From an uncultured Lachnospiraceae bacterium (lineage in GTDB: Bacteria > Bacillota > Clostridia > Lachnospirales > Lachnospiraceae), in the NCBI GenBank assembly GCA_947588675.1, contig CANPYY010000005.1, positions 40,933 to 104,932 on the forward strand: 64,000 nucleotides of DNA, given 5' to 3'. The notes under the pieces were generated by a model, which was not told the DNA's origin, searched no databases, and saw nothing but the letters and a program-made list of their open reading frames with translations. Below, one piece after another: positions 60,190 to 64,000 of this stretch; the first letter of the stretch is position 1; each line of letters opens with the position of its first letter. The translations under genes were made by a program, and so were the position numbers.

Positions 60190-62511
60190 TTAACTTGAAG
60201 TCCTTTCAATATCTATTACACTTTCAACCGCCCTTATTTTTCCTACAAGTATTCTCAGGCTTTCCTTACTGTCTACTTCAAACCCGATATTTATCGTTGC
60301 AGTTCCTTTCTTTGAAGTCCTCACATTCATGGATTTAACATCTATTTCCCGTTCCGTAAAGATTTTTGTTATATCAAACAACACTCCGCTTCTGTTATAA
60401 CAATATACGATAATCTCTGTTGAATACATTCCCTGAGCCTGTTTATTTACACGCCATTCGGCTTCTATAAGCCTTCTTCGGTCTTCTTCGGGCATATTCA
60501 ATACATTAATACAGTCTGTCCTGTGAATGGATACTCCCCTTCCACGCGTAACAAATCCTACTATTTCATCCCCCGGAACAGGGTTACAGCATTTTGAAAA
60601 ACGCACTGCCAGGTCGTCTATACCCTCAACGATAATACCGCTAAGTTTTTTGCCTCCTTTTACCTCTGCACTTTCTGAAGATACCTTAACTTTGTTTTCC
60701 TCAATACTCTTTAATATCTGCTCGTTGGTAATATCCTGTTTATTCTTTTTCTTATATTCTTCCTGAAGCTTATTTACTATCTGACCTTCTTTAAGTCCGC
60801 CGTGTCCTACCGAGGCAAGAAGCGAATCCCAGTCCCTGAATCCGTATTTTCTAAGACATGCCGCCTGATATTCGCTTTTAAGATAATCAAATATAGAAAC
60901 TCCTTTACTCTTACCATAATTAATAATAAGCTCCCTGCCGCGCGCAATATTTTCTTCTTTAAATTCTGCGCGAAACCATTGGTTAATCTTATTTTTGGCC
61001 TGCGTACTTTTAACTATTTTAAGCCAGTCCCTGCTTGGACCATGGGAATTTTGCGAAGTAAGAATCTCTATCCTGTCACCGTTTTGAATTTCATAATCAA
61101 TATTGACAAGGTTTCCGTTTACTCTTGCTCCTACCATTTTGTTTCCTACCGCGCTGTGTATACTGTATGCAAAATCTATCGGAGTTGAACCTGTAGGAAG
61201 CGTTTTTACATCTCCCAACGGTGTAAAACAGTATACGCTGTCCGAGAACAAATCCAGGTCGCTTTTTAAAAGGCTCATAAATTCTTTATTATCTGACATC
61301 TCATGCTGCCATTCAAGAATCTGTCTGAGCCATGTAAGTTTCTCTTCTTCACTGTCGGCAGTATTGCCATTAATTCCCTCTTTATATTTCCAATGCGCCG
61401 CAATACCATATTCTGCTATCCTGTGCATATCATATGTCCGTATCTGAATTTCAAACGGCTGCCCCTGCGGACCAATAAGTGTTGTATGAAGCGACTGATA
61501 ATTGTTCGGTTTAGGCATTGCTATATAATCTTTAAATCTTCCAGGAATCGGCTTATACATTTCATGTATAACTCCAAGCGCTGCATAACACTGTTTATCG
61601 TTTTCAACTATAATTCTTACTGCAAACAAATCATATATCTGATCAAGGGTTTTATTCTGATTTTTCATCTTTTTATAAATTGAAAACAGATGTTTCACCC
61701 TGCCGTCAATCTGCGCGTCAATTTTTGCCTTGGATATATGCTCGCTTACCTCCGATACTATCTGCTGTATAAATGTTTCCTTTTCAACCCTCATGGAATC
61801 AAGTTTATTTGTAAGTTCATCATATATTTCAGGTTCAAGATATTTAAGCGACAGGTCGTCAAGTTCTACTTTCACTTTCGATATACCAAGCCTGTGAGCA
61901 ATAGGCGAATAGATGTCCATAGTTTCCCTGGCTTTTTCTTTCTGTTTTTCAGGTTTCATAAACTGTAATGTCCTCATATTATGAAGTCTGTCCGCCAGTT
62001 TAATGAGAATTACTCTTATATCCTTTGCCATTGCCAGAAACATTTTTCTGAGATTTTCAGCCTGCATCTCAATTTTATCCGCAGAATAATTGATTTTTGT
62101 AAGCTTGGTAACCCCATCCACCAACAATGCAATTTCTTCGCCAAACCATTTTTTTAAATCATCTATAGTGTAATTGGTATCTTCCACAACGTCATGCAGT
62201 ATTCCTGCAACTATTGTTTCTTTATCCATCTCAAGCTGTGCAAGTATAATAGCAACACACAGCGGATGTATTATATAAGGTTCTCCTGATTTTCTTTTCT
62301 GACTGCTGTGCGCGCTTTTTGATATATCATAAGCCCTGTATATAATATCAAGATTATCGGAAGGATGGTATTTCTTTATCTGCTTTATAAGCATGTCAAA
62401 GAGCACTTCAGGGTCTACAAAATTGTCCGGAATACTCATCTGAAGTTCACCGTTATCAATCTTGAGCCTGCCGCTTTGCGGATTCATAATAAGATTGCTT
62501 AATGTATCCAT
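60190..62511 (-). CDS. RelA/SpoT bifunctional (p)ppGpp synthetase/hydrolase
   Basis: HD, synthetase (PKPNNYQSLHTTLIGP), TGS (FCFTPLGDVKTLPTGSTPIDFAY-like) and ACT domains. Confidence 0.96.
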   Translation of the reverse strand: MDTLSNLIMNPQSGRLKIDNGELQMSIPDNFVDPEVLFDMLIKQIKKYHPSDNLDIIYRAYDISKSAHSSQKRKSGEPYIIHPLCVAIILAQLEMDKETIVAGILHDVVEDTNYTIDDLKKWFGEEIALLVDGVTKLTKINYSADKIEMQAENLRKMFLAMAKDIRVILIKLADRLHNMRTLQFMKPEKQKEKARETMDIYSPIAHRLGISKVKVELDDLSLKYLEPEIYDELTNKLDSMRVEKETFIQQIVSEVSEHISKAKIDAQIDGRVKHLFSIYKKMKNQNKTLDQIYDLFAVRIIVENDKQCYAALGVIHEMYKPIPGRFKDYIAMPKPNNYQSLHTTLIGPQGQPFEIQIRTYDMHRIAEYGIAAHWKYKEGINGNTADSEEEKLTWLRQILEWQHEMSDNKEFMSLLKSDLDLFSDSVYCFTPLGDVKTLPTGSTPIDFAYSIHSAVGNKMVGARVNGNLVNIDYEIQNGDRIEILTSQNSHGPSRDWLKIVKSTQAKNKINQWFRAEFKEENIARGRELIINYGKSKGVSIFDYLKSEYQAACLRKYGFRDWDSLLASVGHGGLKEGQIVNKLQEEYKKKNKQDITNEQILKSIEENKVKVSSESAEVKGGKKLSGIIVEGIDDLAVRFSKCCNPVPGDEIVGFVTRGRGVSIHRTDCINVLNMPEEDRRRLIEAEWRVNKQAQGMYSTEIIVYCYNRSGVLFDITKIFTEREIDVKSMNVRTSKKGTATINIGFEVDSKESLRILVGKIRAVESVIDIERTSS

Positions 62512-62660
62512 TCTCATCCCTCCAATTTATAATAAATATCATTCTTAATAGTATAAATATATGCACAAAAAATTTCAAGGCTTTTAGCAAAGAAAGTCAT
62601 ACCTTGTTGCTTTTTTTATTTGTTGCCTATTTGTTGTATATTAAGATTTTGGAAAATTTT

Positions 62661-62891
62661 TATGGATGTGGTCTTATAGGTATTTTTATATATGGTTTTA
62701 TGTAAACGAAACCGATAGCCCATAGGGCTGATATAAGACACATTCTCATTCTGGTGCCTCACGTAGCGGTACATAATTTGACCGCGCATACGGTCAAATA
62801 AGTACCGACGGAGGCACAAGGTCTTATATCATCCCTATGTACTTTCGGTTTCTGTTTCCTTAAAAATATATAAACCATAAAGACATCCATA
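62661..62891. repeat. Long (~230 bp) multi-segment imperfect inverted repeat
   Basis: Nested pairs: TATGGATGT/ACATCCATA, TATGGTTT/AAACCATA, GAAACCGA/TCGGTTTC, CATAGGG/CCCTATG, GATATAAGAC/GTCTTATATC, GTGCCTC/GAGGCAC, CGGTAC/GTACCG, ATTTGACCG/CGGTCAAAT. Confidence 0.9.
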
Positions 62892-63082
62892 TGCGCCGTG
62901 GCTTATGAATGTCCTTTATGGTTGTTGTAATATTATGATTTAATAACAACTATCTCCCTACGCTAATTTGGGCAGAGCGTCGGGGGTAATTGGTATTAAC
63001 TTGGTTATGCTAATTATAGTTTCATAATTAATTTGTTTTTATATATCTTTTTAGCCTAACCATTTATAAGATATTATAATTA

Positions 63083-63565
63083 TTAATTAGTTGCATCCCA
63101 ATCTTTATCATCAACAGCTGTCCAACCATCCTTTTGATTCCAGCTAATAAAATGAGCATCATCCCGATATGTAAATGCTATAACCGCACCTTTACCTACG
63201 GTCACTTGTATAATTTTTTTGTTTGAAGTAGCTTTTTGAGTAACAGGACCAGGATCTGTTGTAACAACTGTAATCGTATCGGTTCCAGCAGTCCAACCAG
63301 TTAATGTTTTATCAGCATCTGTTCCTATTTTACCATCTGGTATATCAGTAGAATTTTGTGCATAATATTCTGCTTCATATCCTGTTATTTCTGTCAAGTA
63401 TCCTGATGCTTCGCTCTGGAATGCTGATTTTCTTGCTGAATCAATGTACCTCATTACGTTTGGTATAAGTACTGCTGCAAGTATCAATATGATTACGATT
63501 ACTACGATAAGTTCTACGAGAGTAAAACCTTTTTTGCTGTTAAGTCTTTCTCTTAACTTTTTCAT
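63083..63565 (-). CDS. Type IV pilin-like / prepilin N-terminal methylation domain protein
   Basis: KKGFTLVELIVVIVIILILAAVLIPNVMRYIDSARKSAF; GGAGGT RBS before ATG 63565. Confidence 0.92.
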   Translation of the reverse strand: MKKLRERLNSKKGFTLVELIVVIVIILILAAVLIPNVMRYIDSARKSAFQSEASGYLTEITGYEAEYYAQNSTDIPDGKIGTDADKTLTGWTAGTDTITVVTTDPGPVTQKATSNKKIIQVTVGKGAVIAFTYRDDAHFISWNQKDGWTAVDDKDWDATN

Positions 63566-63603
63566 AAAATTAAATACCTCCATTCTTTTTTTATTTAGAT
63601 ACT

Positions 63604-63690
63604 AAAAGCCTAATCAGAAATATGTACTCTAGTCTGTATCAGGCTTCCCGTCGTCATCCGTTTGCCCAGACAGATGACATCTGACGCCAT
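63604..63690 (-). promoter_or_regulatory. Candidate structured 5' leader of the pilin gene
   Basis: Minus strand: CATCTG..GGGCAAA..CGGATG hairpin then AAGCCTGAT/ATTAGGCTT hairpin followed by TTTTAG. Confidence 0.4.
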
Positions 63691-63953
63691 TTATCTCAAT
63701 TTAATTGTTTTTATCTCCGAATCTCTTAACGTCAGTTTTATAAATATATATTAAATGATTTTGTTAATTTTGTCAAAAGTTTTTTTAATTTTTCTCAAAT
63801 TTTCTTGTACTTTTTATTTATTAGGGTTTATATAGATATATAAGAAGTTTTGAAATTTTTTAATTACATGGCAATAACTGCCATAATTTAATACTTATGA
63901 CTAATACGTATATTAATACTTTGTCAGGGACGCTTTCGCTTGTTGCAATAACG

Positions 63954-63997
63954 TAACAGTACATAGTGCAGCACAACACGCTGCACAAGTACTGACG
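63954..63997. repeat. Hairpin element related to the core of the 62.66-62.89 kb inverted repeat
   Basis: ACGTAACAGTACATAGTGCAGCacaacacGCTGCACAAGTACTGACG; truncated by the window end. Confidence 0.8.
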
Positions 63998-64000
63998 ATT

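Follow-up and report, generated by a model that had tools for sequence, protein, structure and literature searches.

MITEs are short, non-coding, multicopy and intergenic elements that form hairpins, carry terminal inverted repeats (TIRs) and target duplications, and have empty sites in relatives. The repeat family to which the hairpins of the locus described here belong resembles them in these properties. Its elements are about 200–230 bp long and occur in 1–79 copies per genome, the best-defined subfamily has TIRs and target duplications, and there are empty sites in relatives (genomes G304 and G000). The family differs from the MITEs covered by a review in containing a covarying RNA-type module, which has invariant internal loops and a side hairpin of the GNRA type and is common to subfamilies with different ends. 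Furthermore, no parent transposon, autonomous and with the same ends, was found among the matches listed for the TIR pattern in 11 genomes.

Correia (CREE/NEMIS) and ERIC repeats have other hosts and other ends than the family described here, and we know of no conserved GNRA/UU-UAU module in them. They are palindromic mobile repeats of 100–200 bp with folding transcripts that RNases can cleave (PMC2649163, PMC10969869). The present family is likewise palindromic and mobile, and its transcripts may by analogy be processed by RNases. The BOX, RUP and SPRITE repeats of Streptococcus pneumoniae are distinct from it in sequence and architecture, and it is spread over a whole bacterial family. These pneumococcal sequences are proliferated intergenic Firmicute repeats with predicted RNA folds that were shown to be co-transcribed, in a report from the text of which the term "covari" is absent (PMC3049150). 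The REP/RAYT (REPIN) system shares with the present family the hairpins, the many copies, the close inverted pairs and the intergenic positions. However, the elements described here are approximately 200 bp long, with TIRs and target duplications, and several high-copy genomes contain no Y1 transposase.

Two copies of the repeat in the window

The window, which is the whole 64,000-nucleotide stretch of DNA that was analysed (G000:C5:40933-104932), contains two copies of the repeat, A and B (Table 1). The structured strand of both palindromic elements is the minus strand of the window. The pattern GTACATAN{8,38}AAGTAC matches the window twice, compared to 0.05 matches expected. The tip hairpin of copy A reads as given in the preliminary description, and so does that of copy B, except that its start, placed there at 63954, is three bases further upstream, which makes the hairpin 47 nt long. 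The two differences between the copies noted previously are real: one pair of the GTAC helix changes from G:C to A:T, and the distal stems are wholly different, yet each is still paired. In contrast, the segment described as an ACGTAR//ACG internal loop extends the helix by three base pairs, of which one covaries (T-A/C-G), and has a 2-nt bulge.

Table 1 Positions of the repeat copies and the intervening gene in the window
Feature	Position	Strand	Basis or remark
Copy A, robust part of palindromic element	62696..62864	-	Arms 62696-62739 and 62821-62864; fold to about 62661-62891, outer ends approximate
Copy A, conserved structured core	62732..62830	-	Match to R1 (covariance model), score 71.5 bits
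Copy A, GNRA loop (GAGA) of side hairpin P3 (AAT-GAGA-ATG, minus strand)	62744..62747	-	Sequence and alignment
Copy A, tip hairpin; its minus strand has the YU bulge and the UU//UAU internal loop	62754..62817	-	Sequence, pattern and alignment
Copy B, core truncated by contig end	63922..64000	-	Model positions 18-95, 62.5 bits
Copy B, GNRA loop (GAAA) of P3	63934..63937	-	Sequence and alignment
Copy B, tip hairpin, start corrected by three bases	63951..63997	-	Sequence and pattern
Intervening type IV pilin-like gene, a bystander outside the element	63083..63583	-	Copies adjoin many unrelated genes

The conserved hairpin of copy A is the tip of a longer hairpin, the 44-nt arms of which are 80% complementary, and the complete fold has z-scores of -8.9 and -10.7 on the two strands. 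The same site, downstream of a pilin gene and upstream of a RelA/SpoT-like gene, is occupied in three species, and the insertion of copy A is therefore old. One of its outer pairs is mismatched in the window, whereas the other two species have C:G and G:C, respectively. Several partial homologs of the pilin-like gene are located at different loci of sister species (G270 and G304).

Copy B is interrupted by the end of the contig, which is also the end of the window. Contig C6 of the same genome begins with a second, complete copy (L011:27-122), which is 98% identical to copy B, and many TIR matches elsewhere are located less than 100 nt from contig ends. The repeats thus probably break assemblies.

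Distribution of the repeat family

The pattern GTACATAN{8,38}AAGTACYGNCG was run on 299 Lachnospiraceae genomes together with a reversed-pattern control. Copies were found in 21 of the genomes, with few matches in the control. Thirty cores from the pattern loci were aligned by sequence only (alignment A1), and covariance model R1 was built on the structure drawn there. The search with R1 for further copies in the genome of the window and its relatives was successful, with nine copies in the former and 1–79 in each of 18 other genomes. In a wider survey, R1 matched 114 of the 299 sampled Lachnospiraceae genomes, which is a lower bound, as few candidates were scored per genome.

Four of the 148 genomes in a survey of Clostridia were positive, all of them Lachnospiraceae, and non-Lachnospiraceae genomes gave no match. 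Nearly all the matches from a scan of public genomes with titles naming a family belong to Lachnospiraceae or its genera. Copies are present, for example, in the isolates Lachnospiraceae bacterium GAM79 and G11 and Butyribacter intestini TF01-11. No copies were found in viral contigs, plasmids or phages. The best reading is that the family is specific to Lachnospiraceae. Metagenome-assembled genomes titled Gastranaerophilales or Muribaculum (NALB series; L130, L143, L145 and others) contain the repeats despite their titles, which suggests that they are mislabelled or mixed bins.

The scan of the window against Rfam 15 yielded no match above the curated thresholds, and elements in five loci had no match with E up to 1. 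Integron attC sites were rejected, because core sites RYYYAAC...GTTRRRY are present at the hairpin base on 2 of 184 strands, compared to 4 in shuffles. The comparison with REP sequences was also without match, in agreement with the preliminary description, which did not recognise the hairpins as members of a known family. A search of Rfam and of a library of papers for a description of the repeat family found none, and it has apparently not been described so far.

Element ends and mobility

Each element is one long imperfect hairpin, and elements are sometimes joined as divergent pairs of 400–700 bp. A 229-nt insert in G270 (TTAAGGTGGTTTT...GGAAACCGCCT) is wholly missing from G304, a member of the genus of the window, in which the empty site reads GTATTATTAT followed by GATGATTAT. 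No target duplication was seen at this insertion. Additional orthologous sites are empty in G304 or G000 and occupied in sister species. Insertion into pre-existing palindromes, considered as the origin of the copy-specific outer stems, was rejected for the G270/G304 site, at which the whole 229-nt hairpin is new and the empty site is non-palindromic.

The best-defined subfamily has inverted ends AGRYRATTGCGAAAC, which are a median of 207 bp apart. Target duplications of at least 9 bp flank 39 of its 52 copies, whereas 0.57 are expected when the flanks are exchanged; the duplications are 9–14 bp long, mostly 10–14 bp. Subfamilies in G037, G106, G187 and G000 have other palindromic ends, for example TAAACTGYAG in G037. 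Many copies within a genome look young, such as near-identical ones in G037. Because the subfamilies differ in their ends and the G270/G304 insertion lacks a target duplication, one transposase common to the family is a candidate only.

Close copies form divergent pairs in 17 of 18 cases, with the structured strands pointing outward. Divergent close pairs resemble a two-headed unit (L154, L204, L140, L131, L198, L202, L171, L145, L227, L240, L217, L226, L375, L377, L379 and L380). In locus L083 (G270:C2:86300-93300), divergent copy pairs alternate in a tandem array with a repeated ORF, which has no Pfam match and which we take to resemble the C-terminal part of Rpn-type proteins. As a mobility partner this ORF was rejected, because it is restricted to the G270 arrays and two distant matches. 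At L361 (positions ~1311-1700, G270:C1), the ortholog of the copy at G000:C2:93528 has lost its tip and kept both outer arms.

Conserved fold of the element

In the 5' to 3' direction of the minus strand, the fold starts with the long outer stem P1, stem P2, and a helix of a constant length of 9 bp, which contains a YU bulge and covarying pairs (G-C/A-T and T-A/C-G). The GTAC core of the helix partly covaries in some lineages (GTGC/GCAC or others). The helix is followed by the UU//UAU internal loop and a distal stem that varies between lineages yet remains paired. The returning strand contains a CU or UU bulge, then side hairpin P3, which has two pairs and a GNRA loop, and finally the 3' arm of P1.

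In the 30-core alignment A1, 94.5% of the pair cells are standard, 143 cells have double changes, compared to 42 in shuffles, and 17 of the 25 pairs contain two-sided changes. The 92 matches from the genome scan contain 412 double-change cells (117 in shuffles). Under a tree-aware null, which preserves the tree and the substitutions of every branch, covariation is significant in 11 of 25 pairs in alignment A2 and 9 of 25 in A3, both of which were fitted with the covariance model and hence lean towards the structure, unlike A1. The significant column pairs are nearly all structural; two are outside the drawn pairs, and one of these lengthens the distal stem. The compensatory change of the stems, proposed previously from two copies, is thus borne out by strong covariation, significant under the tree-aware null.

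G.U pairs outnumber A.C mismatches 43 to 4, and the GNRA strand is therefore the one that folds. The P3 loop conforms to GNRA in 60 of 61 cases and in 86 of the 92 genome-scan matches; both N and R vary, and the closing pair of the loop covaries. Other features are near-invariant: UU is present in 90 of 90 copies, UAU or UAC in 88 of 90, and the CU or UU bulge in 91 of 91. The outer arms are copy-specific but match their own partners, with 96 of 129 below the first percentile of exchanged arms. In L029 and L080 (G002), the P3 loop was seemingly swapped for a longer inserted hairpin.

The further copies, the covariation and the lack of a match to known families uphold the earlier view of a selected single-strand structure of an unrecognised family, not a product of chance. 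Because of the GNRA rule, the folding nucleic acid is probably RNA rather than single-stranded DNA. The same unusual RNA-type fold recurs at the tip of almost all copies, suggesting that RNA read from the repeats has an activity.

Genomic context

Of the 104 copies scored, three are inside ORFs, seven are at locus edges, and the others are intergenic. Their orientation relative to the genes on either side is balanced, with 36 copies same/same, 35 opposite/opposite, and 12 and 11 in the mixed classes, and a 3' arm often abuts a stop codon. The neighbours include many unrelated genes. The hairpins in the window do flank a pilin-like gene, as was noted previously, but this link is incidental, since copies adjoin unrelated genes without orientation preference. 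The identity of the element as a mobile repeat, and not a locus-specific RNA, is supported.

No protein encoded by any copy was seen. The search for a recurring protein family beside the copies found none beyond common host genes, and no transposase, reverse transcriptase or guide-RNA nuclease. In G188, a 4.2-kb TIR pair was rejected as an autonomous element, as it contains ordinary chromosomal genes, and divergent pairs 0.6–2.4 kb apart were rejected as gene-bearing parents, because only host genes are inside. In L084 (G270:C8:1800-7800), copies are positioned between a ribD-like gene and a leader that, recognised by eye, we take to be FMN-riboswitch-like and that would control this gene.

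Possible function of the fold

The repeat is very likely a mobile element of the MITE-like type, the single-strand fold of which is under selection. As the best overall explanation we favour, with moderate confidence, a non-autonomous, MITE-like family the fold of which acts in mRNA. A role specifically in mRNA processing or insulation is a more tentative proposal, based on analogy with Correia and ERIC repeats (PMC10969869, PMC2649163). The elements would move as DNA by a DDE-type transposase supplied in trans and, being intergenic, would be read through in mRNAs from neighbouring genes. The transcribed module would then fold and be recognised by a host protein or RNase, which would lead to processing or insulation of the insertion, as with Correia and ERIC repeats. 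The balanced orientation speaks against this model, because it implies that in about half of the insertions between co-directional genes the structured strand would not be read by these genes.

The main rival to the mRNA-processing model, which we regard as unlikely, is that the fold serves the mobility or control of the element itself. RNA, or an RNA intermediate, would participate in copying, or RNA would limit or recruit the transposase, and the fold would be a selfish module without which copies fail to spread. The module is retained across subfamilies with different ends and is not tied to any host gene or orientation, the G270 copy without a tip is a lone decayed remnant, and the divergent pairing looks like a property of a mobile unit. 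However, the TIRs and target duplications are signs of ordinary DNA transposition, a process that works without RNA, and no reverse transcriptase or guide-RNA nuclease is tied to the copies.

Action of the structure in DNA form, as a single strand or a cruciform to which an HUH (REP/RAYT-like) or other transposase or recombinase responds, is improbable. The long palindromes with a compact hairpin at the tip would suit such recognition, DNA also accommodates G.T pairs, and one insertion (G270/G304) is without target duplication. Nevertheless, the loop can be any GNRA, a class set by RNA geometry and not a fixed DNA sequence, and the TIR subfamily has target duplications. Moreover, the Y1 transposase PF01797 has no match in 11 of the 19 positive genomes, among them the ones that carry 79 and 75 copies (drafts may miss genes), and mobilisation by RAYT was rejected for the same reason.

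Very little probability is assigned to an absence of selection on the fold, in which template switching would correct the palindrome arms and the shared loops would reflect recent common descent. Arm correction is known for quasi-palindromes, and the young appearance of many within-genome copies is consistent with such descent. However, arm correction would wipe out asymmetric features, yet almost all copies, from many genera, retain the one-arm P3, the YU bulge and the UU//UAU loop, which disfavours template switching as the cause of the complementarity. The predominance of G.U over A.C and the covarying closing pair of the GNRA loop would also be left unexplained.

The least credible alternative, in which the hairpin would be a regulatory RNA or a terminator specific to the operon of the pilin or to another one, could draw on the conserved site of copy A and the 3' arms abutting stop codons, but for the family as a whole it is refuted by the unrelated neighbours and equal orientations, and terminator-like sites are at the chance level (one in 62500-64000, 0.7 expected). 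Individual copies could have been co-opted.

Returning to the favoured mobile family with an RNA fold, the module may, as we tentatively suggest, be a functional RNA class new to science, carried on a mobile DNA element. Its GNRA side hairpin and receptor-like UU//UAU loop would be recognised by a protein of the host or the element and would control either how the repeat spreads or what becomes of the mRNAs into which it has inserted, throughout an entire family of dominant gut bacteria. The repeats are present in at least 38% of the sampled Lachnospiraceae species, often in dozens of copies per genome, and the covariance model is an annotation tool for these repeats, from which much intergenic sequence and many assembly breaks in gut genomes arise. 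The family poses the question of why a miniature transposon retains an elaborate one-strand RNA fold over long evolution.
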